A stretch of 64,000 nt of DNA from Gemmatimonadaceae bacterium. Lineage in GTDB: Bacteria; Gemmatimonadota; Gemmatimonadetes; Gemmatimonadales; Gemmatimonadaceae. The stretch's first letter is position 1, and every line of letters begins with the position of its first letter. A program made the position numbers and the translations under genes. The notes under the pieces are model-generated. The model worked only from the letters and a program-made list of their open reading frames with translations, ran no database searches and was not told where the DNA came from. The DNA is taken from the NCBI GenBank assembly GCA_036003045.1, contig DASYSS010000022.1, positions 1 through 64,000 on the forward strand. Reading direction: 5' to 3'. Shown here piece after piece: positions 28,128-42,920 of this stretch.

Positions 28128-29465
28128 TCAGTCTCCCGACCCGCCGAGCTTGGGGTTGCTCTGGCGCTCGACATCCGGCAACGGCAGCCCGATTCGGGCG
28201 TCGCCGACGCACGCCTGCGATCCGTACGTCAGACCGGCCGGGAAGTTGGTGCCCGTCGCCGGCGTCAGCGCGAGCTTGTAGCGCATGATGTCGCCGATGT
28301 GCGTGCCCGTGAGGAAGAGCGCGCGGCGGCGCTGATCGATCACTTCGTTGAGCAGCGACGCGGCATCCGTCGGACCCGTGTAGGTGCCTTCGCTGCCCTT
28401 GGCTCTGAACGCATTGATGATCGAGATCGTGTTCGCCGAGTTGGACGACGCGTCGGCCTCGGCGATGATCAACTGCGCTTCATCGCCCGTCGCCATCGGG
28501 ATGTTCGAGGAGACCGACGTGTACTTGAGCTGCGCCCACGCCGGAACGCCGAGCGCGTTCGGCCGGTTCAGGTTCTGGACCGGAACGCGCGGATCGTTCA
28601 TCGTGCGGTACCGAGCGCCGACCGACGACGACACGCCCAAGGCGTTGCTCTCGACGAACACGCGGTTGTTGCGGCGGCTGCTGACCGAGGATGCCGTGGC
28701 GTTGAACACGAAACTGGCGGGCACCAACGCCGCGTCGGTTCGCGCACCGGCCAGGTTTCCCTGGTCCTGCCGGGCCCTTGCTCGGCCGACGAGCGCCATG
28801 TTGAGAATGCTCGACGCCGCAGCACCCTGGGCCTGTGCCACGGTGATCGCCTGGTTGAAGCGGTCCTCGGCGGCCTTGAAGGCGTCGTTCCGCGTCGTCT
28901 CGCCGGCGTAGGCGAAATCGGTTCCGGAAATCGTCGTCAACACCGTGGAGCAGAACCCTTCTCCGAGGAGGAGGATGCTCCAGGCCTCGTACGCGGCGGC
29001 CGTGGCGATGAGCACCTGCCGGTTGGTACCGGCCGGAATTTCGGCGTCGGTCCAGCCCTCGAGCAGCGTGCGGATGTGGTTGGCCGTGACGCGGGCGGTC
29101 TGCAGCGGCGTGTAGACACCGAGACCGTCGCACGAATTGACGGAGTACATGCTCTGGTTCGACTGCACGTCGCGGCGGTCGTAGGGCCACCGTGAGGCGG
29201 TCTGCGTGTAGTCGTCGAGCTCTTCGCCGACGAGACCGCCGACGACGACGTAGGCGCCGAACGCGCACTCGAAGTCAGAGACGGCGCCGTTGACGAGGAG
29301 CGCGGCGTTGGCCGGGGTCTCGAGCGTCCCGGCCGGGATGCGGCTGGGCGAGTCGACCGACAGTGCCTTGTTGACGTCGCAGCCGGCGAGGGCGAGCGCC
29401 GTCGCCGCCGACGCCACCAGCGCGGCGATCCACCGGCTCCGCGCTTTCAGATTATATGGATGCAT
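28128..29465 (-). CDS. SusD/RagB-like outer-membrane lipoprotein
   Basis: The 445-residue product has a lipoprotein signal (VASAATALALAGCDVNKAL; lipobox LAGC). The mature part is mostly helical with TPR-like units, and the stretches AYEAWSILLLGEGFCS, RFNQAITVAQ, ARARQDQGNLAGARTDAALV and VIDQRRRALFLTGTHIGDIMRYKL follow the RagB/SusD pattern. SusD proteins sit on the extracellular face and form a lid on the SusC channel to capture glycans or peptides. It lies 12 bases downstream of the SusC-like gene, giving the canonical pair. No dedicated polysaccharide enzyme is adjacent, so the substrate is unknown. Confidence 0.9.
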   Translation of the reverse strand: MHPYNLKARSRWIAALVASAATALALAGCDVNKALSVDSPSRIPAGTLETPANAALLVNGAVSDFECAFGAYVVVGGLVGEELDDYTQTASRWPYDRRDVQSNQSMYSVNSCDGLGVYTPLQTARVTANHIRTLLEGWTDAEIPAGTNRQVLIATAAAYEAWSILLLGEGFCSTVLTTISGTDFAYAGETTRNDAFKAAEDRFNQAITVAQAQGAAASSILNMALVGRARARQDQGNLAGARTDAALVPASFVFNATASSVSSRRNNRVFVESNALGVSSSVGARYRTMNDPRVPVQNLNRPNALGVPAWAQLKYTSVSSNIPMATGDEAQLIIAEADASSNSANTISIINAFRAKGSEGTYTGPTDAASLLNEVIDQRRRALFLTGTHIGDIMRYKLALTPATGTNFPAGLTYGSQACVGDARIGLPLPDVERQSNPKLGGSGD

Positions 29466-29477
29466 ATTTATAATCTC

Positions 29478-32400
29478 TTAGAAGCCGAGGTTGAGGGAGA
29501 GGATCCAGGTCGTGAGCTGTGGGGTCAGCGTCTGCTCCCACGCGACGTTGCCGCCGCGGGTGCCGCCGAGCCAACTCGCTTCGGGCTCGAAGCCCTGATA
29601 GTTGGTCCACGTGTGCAGGTTGCGGCCCGAGATCGAGACCGTCGCGCGCGACACGTTGCCGTGGTGGCTGAAACGCTCCGGGACGTCGTACGACACGGTG
29701 AACTCGCGCCACTTCGTGAAGCTCGCGTCGGTGATGAGGAAATCCACGACGTTCGAGTTCTGCATCTGCGCGATCGTGACCGGGTCGTAGTCGAGCGGGA
29801 AGTAATTCTCGCGGCAGCGGCCGCCGATGACCGGCGTGCAGCGGACGCGCGTGTTGCCGTCGATCTTCTTGTGCCCCTGCTTGAAGTCGATGAAGGTGCT
29901 GACGTGGAAGCGGCTCCAGAGGCCGAGGTTGGCCGACACCGAACCTTCGTGCGGCGGCACCGACCGGCCGAGGTAGACGAGCGGCGCGTCGTCGGCGGTG
30001 CCGAACGCGTTGTCCGGACCGGCGCACTGCACCTGGCCGCCCTTGCCGTTGGAGCACATCAGCGTGCTGAGAATGAGCTTGCCGTTGGCGTCGAGCTTCG
30101 CGTCGGTCACGTGGCGCTCCCAGAATCCGAACGCGTCGTAGCCGATCGCCTGTCGCGTGAAGCTGCCCGAGTTCACGAACGACACCGTGTCGAACAGCGC
30201 GAGCACGCGGTTGTCGTTGTTCGCGAAGTTGAACGTCAGGTCGAGGTTGGCGTTTCGCGTGCGGAGCGGGTTCGCGCGAACCTGGAGCTCGTTGCCCCAG
30301 TTGCGGATCGCGCCGGCGTTGAACGGCTGCGTGCTCGGAATGCCGGTGGACGGCGCGATCTGGCGGTTGAGGATCGCGTCGACGGTTTTCTTATTGTAAT
30401 ACGTGTACTCGATGCCGAGCCGGTCGTCGAGCATGCTGGCGTCGAAGCCGAGCTCGATTTCCTTGCCGCGCTCGGGGCCGAGGTTCGGGTTGCCGATGAA
30501 CAGGGGCGTGACCGCCGGCGTGTCGCCCGGACCGGACGCCGAGCCGTACGTGCGGAGCGCCGAGTAGGTCGACGGCGCCTTGCCGGCCTCGCCGTACGCC
30601 GCGCGCAGACGCAGCGACGACAACCGGTTGCCGATCACCGGAACCTTGAACCACGGCTCGTCGGAGATCACGTAGCTCACCGAGTACTTCGGGTACGTCA
30701 CTCGGCTGAAGCCCGCGCCGAACGCGCTGGCGTCGTCGGAGCGCAGCGCGGCCGTGAGGAAGAGACGATCGCGCCAGCCGAACTGCTCCTGCACGTACAC
30801 GCCGAGCGTCTTGTCTTCCGAGAAGTCCTGGTCGTTCGTCTTCGACTGCGTCGTCGCCTGGACGGTGCTCAACCCCGGCGTCGGGAAAACGGAGCCGCTC
30901 GCCGAGACGTAGTCCACGGAGTTGTGGTAGAACTGCGCGCCGCCCGACGTGATGAAGCGCGTCGTCGGCCTGAAGTCGTACGTCGCGCTCGCCGAGTAGT
31001 CGAGCGTGTTGTACGTGGTCGAGCGATCCTGCACGCTGCGGTAGCCGAGCGCGTCGGAGCCGACCGTGTAGACCAGCGAGTCGATTCGCGGCGCGTAGGT
31101 GTCGTTCTCTTCACGCGTGCGGTCGAGACCGATCGCCAGATGCTGCTGGAACCACGTGAACGGCGTATGGTCGATCCGGAGACTGCCGGAGAATCGATCC
31201 AAATTCTGCCAGTAGTGATAGATGTCGTCGTATTGGTACGGCAAAAGACTATGAAAGCCGTGGCGCCGCGGGTTGTTGTAGTTGGCCGGCGTACCCAGCA
31301 GCGTGGTCCACGTGTGGCCGCCGCATCCGCCCTCGCAGCCGAGCTGCGTCGGGCCGGTGTTGAGGCCGAGGTTCGCCGAGATGCGGAGCGACTGCGACGC
31401 GGCGAGACCGAGGTTCATGCGCGTGCTGTAGCGGCGCAAGTCGTTGTTCGGGTCGGCGCCCTGCGAGTCGAGCAGATTGCCGCTGAGGTAGTAGTTCAGG
31501 TTGCCCGTTCCGCCGCTGACGGCGACTTCGCTCTCCTGATGGCGTCCGTCACGATAGATGTCGCAGCGACGGCCGGTCTTGTTCGCGGTCGAGTCGCCGC
31601 ACGCGCCGACTTCGAGCGAGTCCATGTTGAGCGGAACCGGCGTCGTCGTGCCGGGGATGATGCCCCAGTTCTGCGCGAAACGGCTCTTCCAGTCCTGGAC
31701 GTAGTTCTGTCCCTGACGGAGCATCACGTTCCAACGCGCGTTTCCGCCGGTGCCCTTCTTCGTGATGATGTTGACGACGCCGTTCGACGCTTCCGTTCCA
31801 TAGAGCGTCGCCGCGCTCGGACCCTTGAGGACTTCGATCGACTCGATGTCTTCGGGGTTCAAGTCGTTGAGGCGCGAGATCGAGCTCGAGCTGAACGCCT
31901 GATTGACGGGACCGGTCGCGACTTCGTTGTTGACGCGAACGCCGTCGATGTAGATGAGCGGATTGTTGCCGAGCGAGAAGCTCGCCGTGCCGCGCACCCG
32001 AAGCTGCTGGCCCGAGCCCACCATGCCCGACGTCGGCATCACGACCACGCTCGGCGTCCGGCCGTTGATCAGGCCTTGCACCGAGAGGATCGGGGCGTTG
32101 GCGACGATGTCCGCCGCGTCGATCGTGCCGACGGAGTTACCGATTTCACGCTTTTGCGCCGCGCCGACGGTGCCCGTCACGACGACCGCCTCGAGGCTCG
32201 CGGGATTGCTCACGAGCGTGATCGTCAAATCGGTTTGTCCGACGCGGGCCGCGACTTCCGCGTTCCGGTATCCGATGCGACGCACGCTGAGCGTCGCGTT
32301 GGTGCCGATGATGCCCGTGATGCGAAATTTTCCCTGATTGTCGGAGGTGGCGCGGAGCGTTCCGCCGGCCGCGGTGATTTGCGCGTTGGGAATCGCTTCG

Positions 32401-32573
32401 GCGGATCCGGCGGCGATGACCTGGCCCGAGATGGCGCCCTGCGCGAATGCGGAACTTGCTGAACCAACGGTCGCGATCGCGGCGATCGCGAGAGAGATGA
32501 GGCTACGTGTGAGGAGTGATCGCCCCGCGCGTGGCATATGCACACGACGGGCGTGGGGGTGGGGCATTGCCAT
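29478..32573 (-). CDS. SusC/RagA-type TonB-linked outer-membrane transporter
   Basis: The 1031-residue product has a signal peptide (ISLAIAAIATVGSASSAFA), then a carboxypeptidase-like regulatory beta domain (GAISGQVIAAGSAEAIPNAQ), the TonB plug (VQGLINGRTPSVVVMPTSG, NNPLIYIDGVRVNN) and the SusC-specific IESIEVLKGPSAATLYGTEA motif, followed by a long 22-strand barrel ending in a terminal aromatic residue (ILSLNLGF). It imports large substrates across the outer membrane using TonB energy. ATG at 32573 has GGAAGG upstream; an internal Met at residue 13 is also possible. It is co-transcribed with the SusD-like gene 12 bases downstream. Confidence 0.95.
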   Translation of the reverse strand: MAMPHPHARRVHMPRAGRSLLTRSLISLAIAAIATVGSASSAFAQGAISGQVIAAGSAEAIPNAQITAAGGTLRATSDNQGKFRITGIIGTNATLSVRRIGYRNAEVAARVGQTDLTITLVSNPASLEAVVVTGTVGAAQKREIGNSVGTIDAADIVANAPILSVQGLINGRTPSVVVMPTSGMVGSGQQLRVRGTASFSLGNNPLIYIDGVRVNNEVATGPVNQAFSSSSISRLNDLNPEDIESIEVLKGPSAATLYGTEASNGVVNIITKKGTGGNARWNVMLRQGQNYVQDWKSRFAQNWGIIPGTTTPVPLNMDSLEVGACGDSTANKTGRRCDIYRDGRHQESEVAVSGGTGNLNYYLSGNLLDSQGADPNNDLRRYSTRMNLGLAASQSLRISANLGLNTGPTQLGCEGGCGGHTWTTLLGTPANYNNPRRHGFHSLLPYQYDDIYHYWQNLDRFSGSLRIDHTPFTWFQQHLAIGLDRTREENDTYAPRIDSLVYTVGSDALGYRSVQDRSTTYNTLDYSASATYDFRPTTRFITSGGAQFYHNSVDYVSASGSVFPTPGLSTVQATTQSKTNDQDFSEDKTLGVYVQEQFGWRDRLFLTAALRSDDASAFGAGFSRVTYPKYSVSYVISDEPWFKVPVIGNRLSSLRLRAAYGEAGKAPSTYSALRTYGSASGPGDTPAVTPLFIGNPNLGPERGKEIELGFDASMLDDRLGIEYTYYNKKTVDAILNRQIAPSTGIPSTQPFNAGAIRNWGNELQVRANPLRTRNANLDLTFNFANNDNRVLALFDTVSFVNSGSFTRQAIGYDAFGFWERHVTDAKLDANGKLILSTLMCSNGKGGQVQCAGPDNAFGTADDAPLVYLGRSVPPHEGSVSANLGLWSRFHVSTFIDFKQGHKKIDGNTRVRCTPVIGGRCRENYFPLDYDPVTIAQMQNSNVVDFLITDASFTKWREFTVSYDVPERFSHHGNVSRATVSISGRNLHTWTNYQGFEPEASWLGGTRGGNVAWEQTLTPQLTTWILSLNLGF

Positions 32574-33457: not shown

Positions 33458-33530
33458 GGAATAGAATGAATAACGGTGACCGCGCCACCTCGACGGCGGT
33501 TAGGCCGTAGGCGAGTTTGTCGAGGGAACC

Positions 33531-34115
33531 CTGACGAGCTATCCACTGCCGCACCCCGCTCCATCGGCCGCACTCGATTCGCGCACGATTCGCCGCGCGA
33601 AGCTCGGTGACATCGACGCCTTCACGCTCATCGTGCAGACGTATTATCCGCGCTGCCTGAGGTTCGCGCGGTCGATGTTGCACGACACGGACGAGGGCGA
33701 GGACGTCGTGCAGGAGACGTTCGTCCGGCTCTACCGCGCGCTGCCGCGCTACGAGGAGCGACAGCGGTTCGAGTCGTGGCTCTTTCAGATACTTGGCAAC
33801 TGCTGCCGCACGGCGAACACGGCGTCGCAACGCCGCGTGGCACGATCGGTATCGGACGACGAGCTGTTGGCTCGTGTTCCGGCGGAGGACAGCGCGAGCG
33901 CGCTGGTGGATCGAGAGTGGGACGAGTCGGTTCGACGCGCGCTCGCCGAGCTGCCGGAGCACAATCGGGAGATTTTTCTGCTGCATTACGTCGAAGGGTT
34001 TTCGTACGAGGAGATCGAGGCGATGACGGGCGTCGGGCAATCGGCGCTCAAGATGCGGGTCAAGCGCGCGTCGGATGCGTTGCGCGCGCGCCTCGCGCCG
34101 GCGGGGGACGAATGA
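33531..34115 (+). CDS. ECF-subfamily RNA polymerase sigma factor
   Basis: Region 2 runs from KLGDIDAFTLIVQTYYPRCL through DEGEDVVQETFVRLYRAL, and region 4 is LPEHNREIFLLHYVEGFSYEEIEAMTGVGQSALKMRVKRA. The first usual start codon in frame is GTG at 33633, but it would remove GDIDAFTLI, which is conserved at the start of region 2. The only candidate further upstream before the in-frame stop at 33501 is CTG at 33531, with GAGGGA 4-9 bases before it (194 residues). The ATG of the membrane partner overlaps the stop (ATGA). This is the first gene of a four-gene locus ending at 36578. Confidence 0.92.
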   Translation: MTSYPLPHPAPSAALDSRTIRRAKLGDIDAFTLIVQTYYPRCLRFARSMLHDTDEGEDVVQETFVRLYRALPRYEERQRFESWLFQILGNCCRTANTASQRRVARSVSDDELLARVPAEDSASALVDREWDESVRRALAELPEHNREIFLLHYVEGFSYEEIEAMTGVGQSALKMRVKRASDALRARLAPAGDE

Positions 34116-34744
34116 GCGAGCTCGAACGCGATCACGTGCTTCGTCGCGTCGTGCAGACGCTCCGCCATCTGCCGGCGCCGGAAGCGGACGACATCCGTCG
34201 TGTCGTCGAAGCGGCGGCCGCGCAGCGGCTCATGCCGCCGGCGGACGATCCGGCGAGCGTCGCCCCGACGTCACGACGCGCGCGTAGCCGGCCGTGGATG
34301 TTCGTGGGCTTGAGCAGTCTGGTGGCCGCGGCGGCGATCGTCGGTTTCGTCGTTCGCGGGCAGTTCGCGCGACCCACGCCTGCCGTCGAGGTCGCGCCGA
34401 CCCCAATGAGTCCAGCGGCTCCGCTGCAGCCGGCGGCGAACGGCGCCGACGGAGCGCAGGACGTTCGGCCGATCCCGCAGCAATTCGTCTTCCGGAGCTC
34501 GTCGGCGCGGCGCGTCGCGGTGGTCGGCGACTTCAATGGGTGGAACACCGCGAGCGCGCCGATGACGCGCGAATCCGGCGGCGACCTCTGGTCGGTGACG
34601 ATTCCGATCACGCCGGGCCGGCACACGTACGGATTCATGGTCAACGACTCGACGTTTACCCTCGACCAAGACGCCCGGGTCGCGCGGGCGCGCGATCCCG
34701 ATCTCGGAGTCGAGGGTTCCGTCGTCATCGTGGGGCGGCCGTGA
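34112..34744 (+). CDS. single-pass membrane protein with C-terminal glycogen-binding (CBM48/AMPK-type) domain, probable anti-sigma factor
   Basis: This 210-residue protein has residues 1-60 as a charged helical cytoplasmic part, 63-83 as a transmembrane helix (MFVGLSSLVAAAAIVGFVVRG), 85-120 as a Pro/Ala-rich linker, and 123-208 as a beta-sandwich of the AMPK/isoamylase early-set type. The glycan-binding family motif VAVVGDFNGW is at 136-144, with the W-S-V-T-I-P and GRHTYGFMVNDS strands. The gene overlaps the sigma gene by 4 bases, so an anti-sigma role is likely, with a periplasmic carbohydrate-type domain as sensor. No zinc anti-sigma motif is seen. Such early-set folds also mediate protein contacts, so glycan binding is not proved. 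Confidence 0.85.
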   Translation: MSELERDHVLRRVVQTLRHLPAPEADDIRRVVEAAAAQRLMPPADDPASVAPTSRRARSRPWMFVGLSSLVAAAAIVGFVVRGQFARPTPAVEVAPTPMSPAAPLQPAANGADGAQDVRPIPQQFVFRSSSARRVAVVGDFNGWNTASAPMTRESGGDLWSVTIPITPGRHTYGFMVNDSTFTLDQDARVARARDPDLGVEGSVVIVGRP

Positions 34745-35397
34745 GATCGCGCTACGTCGTCGCCTTCGTTCTCGCGCTCGTCGCTCGCGGCGCGCGCGCT
34801 CAAGACTCCGTCGCGTTCAAAGGCGCCGACCGCGAGACGCGCGCGTCGCTCGCGAAAATCGTCGCCGACGCGGACGCGCGAGGCCTCCCGAGTGGTCACA
34901 TCGTGTCGAAGGTCCAGTTCGCGCTGGTCGTGCACGCGCCGCCCGCGCGGATTCTCGAAACGGCGAAGGCCGTCGCCGACCGTCTCGAAACGGCGAGAAC
35001 GGCCATCGCGACCGACACGCTGTCCGCCGACATCGCCGCCGGCGAAGAGGCGTTGTCCTTCAAGATTTCGAAAGACATCCTCACGCGGATTCACCGGGCC
35101 GCGCCGACTCGCGCGATCGCCGTTCCGATCGGGCTCCTCACGCAGCTCGTCGCGAACGCGGTGCCGGCGGAACACGCCGGCGAGATCGTCATCAGGCTGG
35201 TGCGAGGCGGCGCGACGCCCAAACAGTTCGCGGACTTTGGCAACGACGTGAACTCTGACGTCCAGCGAGGCGCCAAAGGAGCGGAGTCCGTCGACATTCG
35301 GCTTCGCGGCTTGACCCCCCTCTTGTCGCCGACCGCGGCGACCGCGGGAGACCTCACGGCCAGCTCGCCGGCTGCCCCGGGACCCAAGAAGCCGTAG
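34741..35397 (+). CDS. exported hypothetical protein in ECF/CBM48 locus
   Basis: GTG at 34741 overlaps the stop of the upstream gene (GTGA) and yields a signal peptide (MRSRYVVAFVLALVARGARA). The mature part of about 198 residues is mainly helical in two similar blocks and ends in a low-complexity tail (TASSPAAPGPKKP). The first block has KIVADADARGLPSGHIVSKV; the second has LLTQLVANAVPAEHAGEIVIRLVRGGATPKQFADFG. Both resemble a degenerate internal repeat centred on GLP / AVP. I recognise no family. Translational coupling to the membrane partner suggests that the product acts with it in the periplasm. Confidence 0.78.
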   Translation: MRSRYVVAFVLALVARGARAQDSVAFKGADRETRASLAKIVADADARGLPSGHIVSKVQFALVVHAPPARILETAKAVADRLETARTAIATDTLSADIAAGEEALSFKISKDILTRIHRAAPTRAIAVPIGLLTQLVANAVPAEHAGEIVIRLVRGGATPKQFADFGNDVNSDVQRGAKGAESVDIRLRGLTPLLSPTAATAGDLTASSPAAPGPKKP

Positions 35398-35474
35398 AAG
35401 TCCCCAAACAGCCGTAACGTCGAGTCGCCGCGGGACCTGGGAACTCGCGAGGGGTCCGGACACTATTTTGGGGG

Positions 35475-36578
35475 ATGCGGCGTGTCCGGGAATTCGCGAC
35501 TCTGGCGACAGTTCTGTCGTTGGCGTTCCCTGAATTGGCGCGCGCGCAGTGGCAGGCATCCGCTGATGCGGGACTGTCCCACCTTCGACAGACCGGAATT
35601 CCCGAGTCGGTCGCGCAGACACTCGCGGGGACGATAGACGGAATCGGCAGTCGCGCCTGGCTGCACGCCGTCGGACTCGCGTCGCTCCAACCGAACAACG
35701 CGCGGACGGAACAGGCCCTCGCGATGGGCGGAATCTTCGGAACGATCGTCGATCCGGTGCGCTGGGAGCTCGGCGGTGCGTTCAGCGCATTCAATCAAAG
35801 CGGGGTGCCGATCACCACCACGAGCGGCGAACTGAACGCGCGGCTTCGCTTCGGCGGCCCGCTCGGTGGCGTCTCACTCGGCGGCGGCGCGGGCACCAGC
35901 GCGAACAGCTTCTATAATGTCCGAGTCGGCAGAGGATCGCTCGACGCGTGGTGGACGGCGGGACGGGAGCGGCTGCTCGCCGGCGCGATGGTCACGCACA
36001 TCGGCAGCACCCAGTACACCGACTTTGCCGCCGGTTGGCGGCACGACGCGGGCGCCGCGTCGATCGGCGCGACCGCGGCGCTTCGCGCGGGCGATGGAAG
36101 CGGCGGCTGGCAGGCCGCCGACGCGGAGCTCTGGGTCTCGTCCAGGCTCGCCGTGGTTCTCGCCGCCGGCACCGCGCTCTCGGACGTGGTGCGCGGCACG
36201 CCGAGTACGAGATACGCGTCGGCGAGTCTGCGTGTGGCGTGGCAGCCGCATGTCGCGCTGCGGTTCCGACGGGACACGAATGCCGGAGTGCGCGTCGTCA
36301 TCTCGCGGTCAGGCTCGGGCGAAGGCATCGCGCGCATCGACGTCTCGGGGTCGACTCCCGGCATGGCGCGAGTCGAACTGATGGCTGATTTCACCGGGTG
36401 GGAACCGATCGTGCTCACCCGCGCCGGCGACGGATGGTTCGCCGAGCGCGCGGTGACGCCCGGTCTCCACCGACTCGCGATTCGCGTCGACGGCGGCGCG
36501 TGGATCGCTCCATTCAACGTTCCAAAGCTTCGCGACGACGATCTCGGCGGAACGGTCGGTCTGATCACCGTGCCGTGA
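35475..36578 (+). CDS. exported beta-rich protein with C-terminal glycogen-binding-like domain
   Basis: This 367-residue protein has a signal peptide (MRRVREFATLATVLSLAFPELARA). Residues about 25-280 alternate glycine-rich amphipathic strands (LNARLRFGGPLGGVSLGGGA, WWTAGRERLLAGAMVTHIG), as in a small outer-membrane barrel. Residues about 288-367 repeat the early-set pattern of the membrane protein at 34112: ARVELMADFTGWEP, then WFAERAVTPGLHRLAIRVDGG and a final beta strand. A GGAAC (35440-35444), 16 bases before CACTAT, could be an ECF-type promoter placed very close to the ATG. It probably belongs to the regulon of the sigma factor at 33531. Function unknown. Confidence 0.8.
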   Translation: MRRVREFATLATVLSLAFPELARAQWQASADAGLSHLRQTGIPESVAQTLAGTIDGIGSRAWLHAVGLASLQPNNARTEQALAMGGIFGTIVDPVRWELGGAFSAFNQSGVPITTTSGELNARLRFGGPLGGVSLGGGAGTSANSFYNVRVGRGSLDAWWTAGRERLLAGAMVTHIGSTQYTDFAAGWRHDAGAASIGATAALRAGDGSGGWQAADAELWVSSRLAVVLAAGTALSDVVRGTPSTRYASASLRVAWQPHVALRFRRDTNAGVRVVISRSGSGEGIARIDVSGSTPGMARVELMADFTGWEPIVLTRAGDGWFAERAVTPGLHRLAIRVDGGAWIAPFNVPKLRDDDLGGTVGLITVP

Positions 36579-37926: not shown

Positions 37927-40011
37927 CTACCAAATACGAGCGCGGAGCGAATCCGGGCGCACCATCGGGTCGCCGTCCTTGCAGCCCCATGCGGCCTTGA
38001 ACTCCGGCATGTTGCTGAGCGGTCCGTTGACGCGCCACTTCGCCGGGGCGTGGGGGTTGGTGTTGACCTGAGCCTTCGCCGCGGCGTCGCTTTGGAGCGT
38101 GCGCCACACTTGAGCCCAGCCAAGGAAGAAACGCTGCTCGGGCGTGAAACCGTCGATCTTCGCGGGACGGCCGTGCTCTTTCAGTGACTTCTCGAGCGCA
38201 AGGTACGCGATCTTCAGGCCGCCGAGGTCGCCGATGTTCTCGCCGAGCGTGAGCTTGCCGTTCACGTGCGTCGTCGAGTCGACGATCGTGTAGGCGTTGA
38301 ATTGATCGACGACGCGCTGCGCTTGAGCGTTGTACTTGTCGGCGTCGCTCTTCGTCCACCAATCGCGCAGGTTGCCCCTGGCGTCGAAGCGGCGGCCCTG
38401 GTCGTCGAAGCCGTGCGACATTTCGTGGCCAATGACCGCGCCCATCGCGCCGTAGTTCACGCCGTCGTCGGCGTTCGGATCATAGAACGGCGGCTGGAGA
38501 ATGCCCGCCGGGAAAACGATCTCGTTCCAGAGCGGGTTGTAGTACGCGTTCACCTCTGGCGGCGTCATCCCCCACTCGCTGCGGTCGATCGGCTTGCCGA
38601 CCTTGGCCCAGTTTCGCTCGGCTGACCAGTCGCTGAACCGCTTGAAGTTGCCGTCGTAGTCGCCGACGCGGACCTCGAGCTTCGAGTAATCACGCCATTT
38701 GTCGGGGTATCCGATTTTGCGCGTGAACGCCTCGAGCTTGGCGGCCGCCTGCTTCTTGGTCGAGTCGCTCATCCAATCGAGCTGTCCGATCTGATCGTGC
38801 AGCACCGACACCATGTTGTCGACGATCGCTTTGGCGCGCGCCTTGGCGGCGGGCGTGAACGTACGCGCGACGTACTCCTGTCCGACGGCTTCGCCGAGGA
38901 CGCCGTCGGTGTTTCGCTCGCAGATCTGCCAGCGCGGAAGCTTCTCCTTCTGTCCCGTGAAGGTCTTCTGGAACGAGAAGTTTTCGTCGGCAAAACGCTT
39001 CGGCAGCCGCGACGCGGAGACGTTGAGCAGGCGCCAGCGGAGCAGCGTCTTCCAATCGTCGACCGCGATGGACGTGATGAAGCCGTCCATCGCCTTGAAG
39101 AAGTCGGGCTGCGAGACGTTGATCTCCTTGAGACCTGCCGGAGCGCCCATCGTCGTGAGGAACGTGTCCCACTTCATGCGCGGCGCGATCGAATCGAACT
39201 GCGCGACCGTCATGAGGTGATAAATGGCGTCGGGGTTGCGCATCGTCACGCGATCCATCGACGCGCCGGCAAATTTTGTCTCGATCTCCAGCACGGTCTT
39301 CGCGTGCGCGGCCGCCTCGGCATCGCTTTCGCCGTCGAGCTTGAACATCGCCGCGACGTGTTTCTCGAATTTGTCGCGGATACTCTTCATGGCCGTGTCC
39401 TGCGAGATGTAATAGTTCTTCTCCGGCAGACTCAGGCCGCCCTGACCGGCGTTGGCGATGATCCGGTCGGCGTTCTTGAGGTCCTGGCCCGCGCCGACGC
39501 CGAACGGCGCCAGGCCGTCGGACTTCTCGAGCGTGGTGAGCGCCGCCGGGAGGTCGGCCGACGATTTGATCGCCGCGATCCGCTCCATCGACGCCTGGAT
39601 CGGCTTGGTGCCGAGCGCCTCGATCGCGGCCGTGTCGATGCACGCGCCATAAAACGCGCCGATTTTGAACTGGTTCGACGGCGCCTTGGCCTTGCCGGAT
39701 TTGACGTCACGCGCCGCGGCCTCGACGATCTCGCGAACGATCGTCTCGTTCTTGTCCTGGAGCTGGTCGAACGCGCCCCATTCACCGTACTTGGCGGGGA
39801 TGGTCGTGCGCTTGAGCCAACCACCGTTGGCGAACGTATAGAAGTCCGAGCACGCCGCGCAGGTCGTGTCGAGGTTGGCGCGGTCGAGCGCCTTGGGCGC
39901 GCCAGCCTTCGACGCGGCCGGTACGCCGGCCGTCTGCTGAGCAACGACCGGCGTCGCCGCGGCCAGGCCGCCGAACAGCGCCCCGAATAGGAAAGCGGAT
40001 CGAGAGATCAT
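37927..40011 (-). CDS. exported M13-family zinc endopeptidase (PepO/neprilysin-like)
   Basis: This 694-residue protein has a signal peptide (FLFGALFGGLAAATPVVA). The N-terminal M13 domain starts at CAACSDFYTFANGGWLKRT. The catalytic domain has the NAYY motif (EVNAYYNPLWNEIVFPAGIL), the zinc motif GHEMSHGFDDQG (H529, E530, H533), the third zinc ligand E591 in LGENIGDLGG, and the terminal CKDGDPMV segment. All catalytic residues are present. It should cleave peptides in the periplasm or outside. It stands alone on the minus strand, divergent from the M16 pair at 40060. Confidence 0.97.
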   Translation of the reverse strand: MISRSAFLFGALFGGLAAATPVVAQQTAGVPAASKAGAPKALDRANLDTTCAACSDFYTFANGGWLKRTTIPAKYGEWGAFDQLQDKNETIVREIVEAAARDVKSGKAKAPSNQFKIGAFYGACIDTAAIEALGTKPIQASMERIAAIKSSADLPAALTTLEKSDGLAPFGVGAGQDLKNADRIIANAGQGGLSLPEKNYYISQDTAMKSIRDKFEKHVAAMFKLDGESDAEAAAHAKTVLEIETKFAGASMDRVTMRNPDAIYHLMTVAQFDSIAPRMKWDTFLTTMGAPAGLKEINVSQPDFFKAMDGFITSIAVDDWKTLLRWRLLNVSASRLPKRFADENFSFQKTFTGQKEKLPRWQICERNTDGVLGEAVGQEYVARTFTPAAKARAKAIVDNMVSVLHDQIGQLDWMSDSTKKQAAAKLEAFTRKIGYPDKWRDYSKLEVRVGDYDGNFKRFSDWSAERNWAKVGKPIDRSEWGMTPPEVNAYYNPLWNEIVFPAGILQPPFYDPNADDGVNYGAMGAVIGHEMSHGFDDQGRRFDARGNLRDWWTKSDADKYNAQAQRVVDQFNAYTIVDSTTHVNGKLTLGENIGDLGGLKIAYLALEKSLKEHGRPAKIDGFTPEQRFFLGWAQVWRTLQSDAAAKAQVNTNPHAPAKWRVNGPLSNMPEFKAAWGCKDGDPMVRPDSLRARIW

Positions 40012-40059
40012 GTGAGGCAGGACGGGGTGGAGGAGGGTGGGTTTTGGTATCTTGAATGT

Positions 40060-41520
40060 ATGAACCGGGCAGGGCGATTGTTCCCATTTTTCTGCGCCGC
40101 CGAGCTATTGCTCGGCCCGTTGGCGCGCGGCTCGGTCGGAGCGCAGTCGACGGCTCCGCTCGCTCCGCTCCGCCCTCTCGCCTACACGCGATTCACGCTG
40201 CCAAACGGACTCGTCGCGATCCTCAATGAGGACCACGCGACGCCCATCGTCAGCGTGCAGGTTTGGTATCACGTCGGGTCGAAGGACGACGACCCGGGCC
40301 GGCCCGGACTGGTCCACCTCTGCGAGCACCTGAGCTCGCAGGGTTCGCCGCATCTGAGTCAACCGCAGCAGGCTTTCTATCGCTCACTCGGCGGAACGTC
40401 GGGCGGCCAGACGACCGAGGATGTAACCAAGTTCTTCATCACGGTCCCCAGCAATGAGCTCGAGACTGTACTATGGACCGAATCGGACCGCATGGCGGCA
40501 CCGCTGGCGCTGGCCGATTCGCAGCGCGTCGCCGCCGTAGGACGACTTGTCGAACAAGAGCGAAGGCAGAACGTCGACAACGTGCCGTTCGGCGTGTATC
40601 GAGAGCTCATTCCGGGCTCGCTCTTTCCAGACGGCCATCCATATCACCTCGAGCCACTCTCGCAGAACGCTGCGTTGGCCACCGTCACGCCGGCCGCGCT
40701 GCGAGCAAAGTGCGCTCCGTACTACACGCCGAACAACGCCGTGTTGGCGATCAGCGGCGATTTCGACACGCCCGCGGCTCGCTCGCTGGTCGAGAAGTAC
40801 TTCGCGGCGATTTCCAACGGCTCGCCGGTCACGCGTGCGGACCTGAACGTCGAAGCGCCTACCCCCCGCGCGGAGCGTCGCCTCGTGCTCGAGGATGCGC
40901 GCGCCAACCAAACGAGGCTTCACATCGCCTGGCGGGGCGCCTCGTATGGAAGTCCCGATCGCATGGCTGCGTTGGCGCTCGCGTCGGTGCTGTCCCTTCC
41001 GCGATTCGGCCGTCTATCCAAACTGCTCGTCCACGACCGGCAGCTCGCATCGAGCGTCACCGCCGACAACCATGACTTCGAGAAGTCCGGCGTGTTCGAG
41101 ATTGTCGTCGTTCCGAACGCCGGCGCGTCGATGACGGCGATCGAGGAGTTGGTGGACAGCACGATCGCTTCGCTCGAGACGACGACGCCGGCGACGAGCG
41201 AAGAAATCGAGCGATTCAATGCGTTCAACGGCGTGAATGCATCGACTTCGCTCCAGCTTCATGTCGCCCGCGCCGACACGCTCGCGCATGACGAGGTGTT
41301 CACGGGCAACCCCTCGTCGTACGCTTCGCAGAACAACGCTGCCCTCGCTCTGACTTCGGCGGATGTACAAGCCGTCGCTCGCCGCTATCTGACGCAGGCG
41401 CGCGTCGTGATGAGCCTCGTCCCGGGCGGCAAACTGGAATTGATTAGCAAGCCGAACGCGCCGTACACCAACGTGACGAGGCCTCCTGGTTCCGCGGGCC
41501 CCGCCGCGGCGCGTCCATGA
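40060..41520 (+). CDS. M16-family zinc peptidase, catalytic member of a pair
   Basis: ATG at 40060 gives a signal-like N-terminus (LFPFFCAAELLLGPLARGSVGA); 486 residues. The inverted zinc motif HLCEH (H86, E89, H90) with E167 at the expected spacing of about 77 residues shows an active M16B half, and the FTLPNGLVAILNEDHATPIVSVQVWY start of the domain is typical. The second M16 half has no zinc site, as usual. The next gene overlaps by 4 bases and encodes an M16 protein without the zinc motif, so the two likely form an active heterodimer acting on peptides in the periplasm. Confidence 0.95.
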   Translation: MNRAGRLFPFFCAAELLLGPLARGSVGAQSTAPLAPLRPLAYTRFTLPNGLVAILNEDHATPIVSVQVWYHVGSKDDDPGRPGLVHLCEHLSSQGSPHLSQPQQAFYRSLGGTSGGQTTEDVTKFFITVPSNELETVLWTESDRMAAPLALADSQRVAAVGRLVEQERRQNVDNVPFGVYRELIPGSLFPDGHPYHLEPLSQNAALATVTPAALRAKCAPYYTPNNAVLAISGDFDTPAARSLVEKYFAAISNGSPVTRADLNVEAPTPRAERRLVLEDARANQTRLHIAWRGASYGSPDRMAALALASVLSLPRFGRLSKLLVHDRQLASSVTADNHDFEKSGVFEIVVVPNAGASMTAIEELVDSTIASLETTTPATSEEIERFNAFNGVNASTSLQLHVARADTLAHDEVFTGNPSSYASQNNAALALTSADVQAVARRYLTQARVVMSLVPGGKLELISKPNAPYTNVTRPPGSAGPAAARP

Positions 41521-42920
41521 GATTCTCGCTCGGTCTCTTCGGACTCGCCCTGGCCGGACCGGCGCTTTGCCAGCGGGTCGATCGCGCTGCGCAACCGGTG
41601 GCACCGCGCGCGGCGCCGTTCAAATTTCCGACGATTCGGGCCCACAGACTCCCGAACGGACTCCGCCTACTCGTCGTCGAAGATCACTCCATTCCGGTCG
41701 TCGCCGTGCGCGCGATCGTCGGCGCGGATTCGACGTCGGACCCGCCAGGCAAGGAGGGTCTCTACGATGTGACGCTCGGCGCTTTGGGCGAAGGGTCGAC
41801 CACGCGGAGTCCAGACGAGCTCGCGGCCGCGGCGGCGGCTCTCGGAACCGCGATCGTTCCAACCGGCTTCACCACGGTCTCGTCGGCCTTCGTGCCCGCT
41901 CTCGGCCTCATGTCCGAAATGCTCACGAAGCCTGCGTTCGACTCGACGTCGATCGAGCGGCGAAAGACCGCGCAACTGGCCGCGGCGCGGCGAATCGCGC
42001 AGGCGCCGGTCACGATCCCGCGCCGCTTGTTCTACTCGTTGGTGTATGGGGCGAACGATCCGTTCGTCCGGTCGCTGATTCCAACTGAGGCGACGGTCGC
42101 ATCGATCAGTCGCGCGGACGTCATCGCCTTCTACGGCCGATTCTTCACGCCGCCGACGACAACATTGGCAATCGCCGGCGATGTGACCGATTCGGCCGCG
42201 CTCGACGCCGCCACACGAACGTTTGGCGGATGGCAGGCCACGTCGTCACCGCGCGACGCCGAGGTCAAGGCGGTCACCGCTCGCGACACCCACATCTATC
42301 TGCAGGACGTGCCGAACGCCGGGACGCAGGCATACCTGTATGTCGGAGCCGTCGGACCGTCCCGTACCGATTCCGACGCGGTCGCCACGGAGGCGTTCGC
42401 GGCGGTCGCGACCGCTCGACTCCAGGAGACCCTTCGCGAGAAGCGCTCGTTCATTTACTCGAGCACCACGGGTCTCACCTGGCGGCACGCGGGGGCTGAA
42501 GGCGCGTTCGTCGGGAGCGCCAATGTGAGCGCTCAAAAGGCGGATAGCGCTCTCGCCGAGTGGCTCCGGATTCTGCGCGAGTTGCGCACGACGCGTCCGC
42601 CAACCGCCGGAGAGCTCGACGCCGTACGCTCAGCTCGAGTGGGGGTGCTGCCGTCCCGCATCGATGGGCCGGATTCGATCGTGACCCGGCTCGTGGAGAT
42701 CGCGCGTGACAGGCTGCCGCTCGATTTCTTCGAGCGGTATGCCTCACGGATGTCATCCGTCACTTTGGCCGACCTAAAGTTGGCGGCAGCGCGCCACGTG
42801 GACGTCGCCCACCTGGTGATAGTCGTGACCGGGGACGCTCGCGTTCTGGAGCCGGTTCTGGGTGCGGTCAAGCTGGCTCCCGTGACCGTGTTGCCTCCCC
42901 AGCGGGGCTCCGCTCCATAG
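41517..42920 (+). CDS. M16-family protein without zinc motif, non-catalytic partner
   Basis: This 467-residue protein has a signal peptide (MRFSLGLFGLALAGPALC). It shares the M16 start RAHRLPNGLRLLVVEDHSIPVVAVRAI, but the position of HxxEH reads GKEGLYDVTLGA, so no zinc can be bound. The C-terminal half retains the substrate-positioning R/Y region (LQETLREKRSFIYSSTTGL). Its ATG overlaps the stop of the catalytic M16 gene (ATGA). In mitochondrial processing peptidase and bacterial M16B pairs the inactive subunit helps hold the substrate; the same role is inferred here. Confidence 0.93.
   Translation: MRFSLGLFGLALAGPALCQRVDRAAQPVAPRAAPFKFPTIRAHRLPNGLRLLVVEDHSIPVVAVRAIVGADSTSDPPGKEGLYDVTLGALGEGSTTRSPDELAAAAAALGTAIVPTGFTTVSSAFVPALGLMSEMLTKPAFDSTSIERRKTAQLAAARRIAQAPVTIPRRLFYSLVYGANDPFVRSLIPTEATVASISRADVIAFYGRFFTPPTTTLAIAGDVTDSAALDAATRTFGGWQATSSPRDAEVKAVTARDTHIYLQDVPNAGTQAYLYVGAVGPSRTDSDAVATEAFAAVATARLQETLREKRSFIYSSTTGLTWRHAGAEGAFVGSANVSAQKADSALAEWLRILRELRTTRPPTAGELDAVRSARVGVLPSRIDGPDSIVTRLVEIARDRLPLDFFERYASRMSSVTLADLKLAAARHVDVAHLVIVVTGDARVLEPVLGAVKLAPVTVLPPQRGSAP

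Follow-up and report, generated by a model that had tools for sequence, protein, structure and literature searches.

How might the state of an outer-membrane protein be relayed to RNA polymerase without a TonB-dependent receptor? The question is raised by four genes in a 64,000-nucleotide stretch of DNA from a Gemmatimonadaceae bacterium (contig DASYSS010000022.1 of assembly GCA_036003045.1; the whole stretch is called the window below). In the Gemmatimonadota, which abound in soil, regulation of the envelope has been little studied. On the forward strand, the four genes encode an extracytoplasmic function (ECF) σ factor, a single-pass membrane protein (P1), an exported helical protein (P2) and an exported protein predicted to form an outer-membrane β-barrel (P3), and P1 and P3 carry a domain of the same CBM48/AMPK type. 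The reading we favour, at slightly better than even confidence, is that these genes form an autoregulated, TonB-independent cell-surface signalling operon that controls envelope proteins, and that P3 has a signalling role in it.

The four-gene cassette and its conservation

The four genes stand side by side on one strand, in the order described by an initial annotation of the locus (σ factor, membrane protein, helical and β-rich exported proteins). Stop and start codons overlap as ATGA between σ and P1 and as GTGA between P1 and P2, P2 and P3 are spaced by 77 nt, and a search of Rfam gave no match in the operon region. The first gene (33531–34115, +) encodes an ECF σ factor, as had been proposed: Sigma70_r2 (3.1e-16), Sigma70_r4_2 (1.2e-14) and TIGR02937 (sigma70-ECF) match above cut-off, and regions σ2 and σ4 are present with σ3 absent. 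With a GAGGG-like site ahead of it, CTG 33531 is a plausible but unproven start of this frame, because ATG, GTG and TTG starts are absent ahead of region 2.

P1, P2 and P3 were searched separately in 98 relatives. There, 114 of 118 P2 matches have a P1-like match no more than 1.5 kb away on the same strand, P2 follows P1 in 114 of the 115 P1–P2 pairs, P3 lies within 3 kb of 85 of the 118 P2 matches, and the P1, P2 and P3 triple occurs in 60 genomes. Cassettes usually number one or two per genome and reach four, with three in genome G026. When loci were ranked on P1 alone, each of the 30 best had σ immediately upstream and P2 downstream; the strand-filtered counts were 19 and 18, and reversed or truncated loci with the same genes were added by eye. 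Named genomes scanned independently for a P3 peptide motif yielded 27 loci, 26 of them labelled or taken as Gemmatimonadota, and wherever the flank was long enough the order was σ-P1-P2-P3 (18/18). Across the phylum, P2 was found in 154 of 249 sampled genomes. Pairwise distances of the cassette parts correlate (r 0.39–0.66, permutation maximum 0.21) as expected for co-inherited units, with shared phylogeny still in play, and a set of 41 cassettes picked partly for the nearness of all parts was kept out of the unbiased evidence. The order conserved across the phylum rules out chance adjacency, and the co-occurrence on which the initial annotation had staked its proposal is borne out.

At least one named isolate, Roseisolibacter sp. 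H3M3-2 (L171), also has the cassette; its contig shows P1-P2-P3 and breaks off short of σ. A complete copy, the one exception among the 27 loci, lies on a 6.2-kb contig labelled Vicinamibacterales (L166), which may reflect misbinning or transfer between phyla. The arrangement varies: P3 precedes σ in four cassettes (L118, L143, L147, L148), and several loci have a second P2 after P3. From these variants, and from five loci without P3 discussed below, σ-P1-P2 is the most constant core and P3 the commonest fourth member. No further neighbour is conserved beside all cassettes in an all-against-all comparison of the flanks, which vary.

A candidate anti-σ factor, a helical protein and a predicted barrel

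What would hold the σ factor in check? P1 (34112–34744, +) is a protein of 210 amino acids with a cytosolic segment (residues 1–60), one transmembrane (TM) segment at about residues 63–81 (34298–34354, +) and a C-terminal periplasmic CBM48/AMPK-type domain (34475–34732, +) that contains an FNGW motif; arginines on the N-terminal side of the TM segment place the N-terminus inside. CBM_48 (1.3e-9) and AMPK1_CBM (1.8e-7) match above cut-off, and these profiles are matched in 34 of 34 P1 homologues, so that the membrane protein of the initial annotation is as it was described. A σ-adjacent gene (30/30), a cytosolic N-terminus, a TM segment and an extracytoplasmic domain together make the layout of a class I anti-σ factor. 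In a coevolution study about 79% of Gemmatimonadetes ECF σ factors go with anti-σ factors of that class (PMC7406223), and P1 is therefore likely an anti-σ factor; the anti-σ domains of Pfam gave no match. P1 and its homologues gave no FecR match, and P1 gave none to the RsgI domain.

Indirect support for P1 as a σ-binding inhibitor comes from a fused relative. At L136:1763–3946 a single frame of 728 amino acids encodes σ, a P1-like N-terminus, a TM segment, CBM48 and P2, free of stops and of any visible frame change, and therefore links σ, P1 and P2 as parts. This fusion is a candidate membrane-tethered σ factor. Two other apparent fusions were put aside: that of σ and P1 at L138 is probably a frameshift, because the σ C-terminus reads out of frame, and that of P2 and P3 at L133 is doubtful, with the P3 signal peptide retained inside it.

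P2 (34741–35397, +) has a signal peptide, and its AlphaFold model (predicted local distance difference test, pLDDT, 89) is all-helical with 10 helices, in agreement with the exported helical protein first described. Searches of Pfam and NCBIfam gave no match, and a Foldseek comparison with the PDB gave nothing at E ≤ 0.001, with CnrX absent from among the matches listed. The only structures of similar fold are designed helical repeats, with Z no higher than 10.8, a likeness below the meaningful level for helical proteins, and the mTERF matches in the same comparison were ignored.

P3 (35475–36578, +) had been described as an exported β-rich protein. The signal peptide and the FTGW motif in a C-terminal domain are there, whereas the "β-rich" part is a predicted outer-membrane barrel of 14 long strands (residues 26–255; 35550–36239, +). 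In the AlphaFold model (pLDDT 88, built from 39 sequences) a closed antiparallel β-barrel of the porin kind starts directly after the signal peptide, without a plug, and the model lacks the N-terminal signalling domain that marks TonB-dependent receptors of the signalling type. The nearest PDB structures are monomeric porins, CymA (Z 18.2 over 232 residues, 3.8 Å) and OmpG (Z 17.5), which share the 14-strand fold; they differ in having no C-terminal CBM48 and no σ link, and in being only about 5–8% identical to P3. Porin_4 matches 2 of 39 P3 homologues.

Behind the barrel the model has a small β domain (residues 285–366; 36327–36572, +). P3 of the window itself has no family match, and CBM48 is assigned through its homologues, of which 32 of 39 match AMPK1_CBM at E ≤ 0.1, with 7.3e-8 as the best value. 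Profiles of P1 and P3 also match each other, and the early-set domain first proposed for both proteins is supported. In P3 this domain should face the periplasm, because both barrel ends are expected there.

Is the shared domain a sugar sensor? One possibility is that the cassette senses and takes up α-glucans (maltodextrin or glycogen), with P3 a porin for cyclodextrin- or maltodextrin-like substrates and both CBM48 domains binding sugar. It would account for the CBM_48 and AMPK1_CBM matches and for the cyclodextrin porin CymA as best structural neighbour of P3, although that likeness may stem only from strand number. The residues point both ways. The equivalent of AMPK β1 W100 is invariant in P1 (34/34) and P3 (39/39) and that of W133 is tryptophan in 38/39 P3 and 21/34 P1 sequences, but that of K126 is lost in both, and at the N150 position most P3 sequences have V or A, with variation and partial loss in P1. 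The glycogen-contact set W100/K126/W133/N150 is thus incomplete in both proteins, and a kept aromatic face without the polar sugar contacts fits, on these alignments, a binding surface that is not necessarily one for glycogen. Relatives without a GH13 match have the cassette in 23 of 30 cases, those with a match in 55 of 66 (Fisher p 0.57; presence table tallied by hand). Its presence thus does not depend on GH13 α-glucan metabolism. The flank comparison showed no recurrent saccharolytic neighbour, and the candidate targets described below are lipoproteins and proteins resembling outer-membrane proteins (OMPs). An α-glucan ligand is not supported, and we regard this explanation as quite improbable.

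Sensing of peptidoglycan or another envelope glycan by the periplasmic domains would suit their location, the envelope regulon and the conserved aromatic pair. Peptidoglycan binders, to our knowledge, use folds other than CBM48-like ones, and we give this explanation very little credence. Of the envelope sensing of a glycan suggested in the initial annotation, the envelope part is retained and the glycan ligand is not.

Promoter motif and candidate regulon

A promoter-like element, GGTGACCG-N15-GGTTAGGC, lies at 33475–33505 (+), about 26 nt before the σ frame; a pattern search of the genome recovered an exact copy at 33476–33505. Expectation maximization on the regions upstream of 57 σ genes gave (T/G/A)GTGAC-N17/18-GGT, with GTGAC-N17/18-GGT as consensus, and a GGAAC-type promoter was rejected, none being conserved upstream. 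Of 57 cassettes, 50 reach a motif score of at least 8 ahead of σ, versus 1.4% of Markov shuffles, a contrast that is partly by construction because the matrix was trained on the same regions. Independent tests are provided by a scan with scrambled matrices and by a family of target genes, T4. The scan of 60 loci gave 79 sites, and three scrambled matrices yielded 5, 6 and 8. Cassette σ genes follow 37 of these sites, and cassette P2 or CBM48-bearing genes follow four; where another open reading frame starts within 120 nt of a site, it encodes a lipoprotein, an exported or a membrane protein in 19 of 21 cases, versus 17% at random positions.

T4 proteins (L121, L164, L211–L217) are exported and OMP-like, about 490 amino acids long and without a Pfam match. 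Their gene is beside the cassette in L121 and remote from it in the window's genome (L164, G000:C80 near 11224). Among eleven genomes examined, the motif lies upstream of T4 in all six that have a T4 match, at least three of which were found independently of the motif. Other targets recur as well: related small lipoproteins at L112, L129 and L149 (twice), another lipoprotein at L118 and L147, and DUF4382-type lipoprotein genes that are divergent from σ and have their own motif copy (L123, L124, L125, L127, L135). In the window's genome a genus-specific form of the motif matches at five sites and a reversed control at none; one of the five is the σ promoter, and three of the remaining four stand before genes for exported proteins. 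At L163 (G000:C22 near 121713) the motif is just upstream of a gene for an Emfourin-like lipoprotein, which is followed by one for an MscS-like protein.

Within cassettes of standard order the motif is absent upstream of P2 and P3, and a single operon promoter is therefore assumed. Two P3-first cassettes (L118, L143) have it before P3, and second P2 copies with their own motif are found at L140 and L176.

Such a distribution also suits another explanation, in which P3 is purely output: σ, P1 and P2 would sense envelope stress alone, and P3 and the lipoproteins would be the response. The shared CBM48 would then stem from duplication, or would let unassembled P3 titrate P1 as a homeostatic feedback, much as σE answers misfolded OMPs. 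P3 does sit in an autoregulated operon or, in P3-first cassettes, behind its own promoter copy, and the remaining targets are likewise exported envelope proteins. Set against this are the CBM48-like domain of P3, found in conserved order in most cassettes, and the near-invariance in P3 of the two tryptophans whose AMPK counterparts are sugar-stacking (39/39 and 38/39), which suggests a retained binding surface. We consider a purely output role unlikely.

Proposed signalling by the barrel and its nearest precedents

From the operon and its conserved order, the fusion, the barrel and CBM48 predictions, the promoter motif and the exported targets, all of them computed, we infer a signalling path. 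P1 would be a membrane anti-σ factor whose short N-terminal helices hold σ and whose CBM48 lies in the periplasm, where P2 would be the helical partner of P1. P3 would span the outer membrane as a 14-strand barrel with its C-terminal CBM48 on the periplasmic side. The trigger might be an altered ligand, occupancy or assembly state of the barrel, relayed by contact among the CBM48 of P3, P2 and the CBM48 of P1. Release of σ by P1 would then switch on the σ operon itself, together with a few lipoprotein and OMP genes that have GTGAC-N17/18-GGT promoters.

Several points weigh against this reading. That P1 binds σ is itself something we infer, and the N-terminus of the window's P1 resembles a known anti-σ family, NF052375, only weakly (E 0.098, below cut-off); the P1 of L122 does so better (E 5e-5), still below cut-off. 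P3 could be output only. In five loci (L117, L137, L146, L153, L154) P3 is absent and an exported protein, probably an M14-type peptidase as judged by eye from its sequence, directly follows P2, as the output explanation would have it, and P3 is therefore not essential to the core. A stricter motif pattern gave few matches in six genomes, with little excess over the control, and the regulon is therefore probably small. Controls for the motif, whose specificity among the ECF σ factors of the phylum is putative, were shuffles, scrambled matrices and random positions.

Among working models, iron cell-surface signalling comes closest to barrel signalling, because in PupR/PupB and FecR/FecA the receptor in the outer membrane uses a periplasmic domain to contact the anti-σ factor's own periplasmic portion (PMC9249621). 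Like FecI-FecR-FecA and PupI-PupR-PupB, the cassette has an ECF σ factor, a single-pass regulator with a periplasmic domain and an outer-membrane barrel (PMC9249621). Every part other than σ differs, however: P1 has no FecR match, P2 is extra, and P3 is a porin-like barrel of 14 strands without a plug or an N-terminal signalling domain, its own domain being C-terminal. The cassette operon also appears to be autoregulated, and no link to iron was seen.

We know of no outer-membrane partner for signalling in the CnrH-CnrY-CnrX system of Cupriavidus. It has an ECF σ factor, a short helical membrane anti-σ factor and a periplasmic partner, but senses metal and has no CBM48 (PMC4598750); a relation between P2 and CnrX was not found. 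In clostridial σI-RsgI the anti-σ factor bears an extracytoplasmic carbohydrate-binding-type module and σ autoregulates, but σI is a non-ECF factor of Gram-positive bacteria, the modules are CBM3 and GH, there is no outer-membrane partner (PMC6056542), and P1 lacks the RsgI domain. Streptomyces SCO4117 (ECF52) joins σ to a TM segment and an extracytoplasmic carbohydrate-binding domain much as the L136 fusion does; it is a single actinobacterial polypeptide with no outer-membrane barrel or P2 (PMC8999054). Carbohydrate-binding-type modules on an anti-σ factor or a fused σ factor are thus already known (PMC6056542, PMC8999054), and the novelty is a CBM48 anti-σ candidate paired with an outer-membrane barrel bearing the same domain. 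The initial annotation knew of no described system of this architecture, and the open literature searched likewise yielded none with P2 and a CBM48 barrel, and nothing relevant on an anti-σ factor with a CBM48 or glycogen-binding domain; the main ECF reclassification might mention one.

Most of the Gemmatimonadota genomes sampled have the cassette, frequently more than one copy of it, and it comes with a defined promoter and a candidate regulon. If the barrel does signal, then signalling from the outer membrane to σ needs no TonB-dependent receptor, P2, a widespread family without known relatives, gains a function, and so do several unannotated lipoprotein and outer-membrane families. A bolder version, which we find possible but would sooner doubt than believe, is a second, TonB-independent route from the outer membrane to RNA polymerase through the barrel's CBM48, a helical adaptor and the anti-σ CBM48, in which a sugar-binding fold would have turned into a protein-protein signalling module and up to four paralogous channels per cell would operate across Gemmatimonadota.

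The genes around the cassette in the window were assigned by eye. A SusC/RagA-like TonB receptor and a SusD-like lipoprotein (28128–32573, −) adjoin it on the opposite strand and are not among the neighbours common to other cassettes. Downstream of metK lie an M13-like metalloprotease gene (37927–40011, −) and two M16-like peptidase genes (40012–42920, +).

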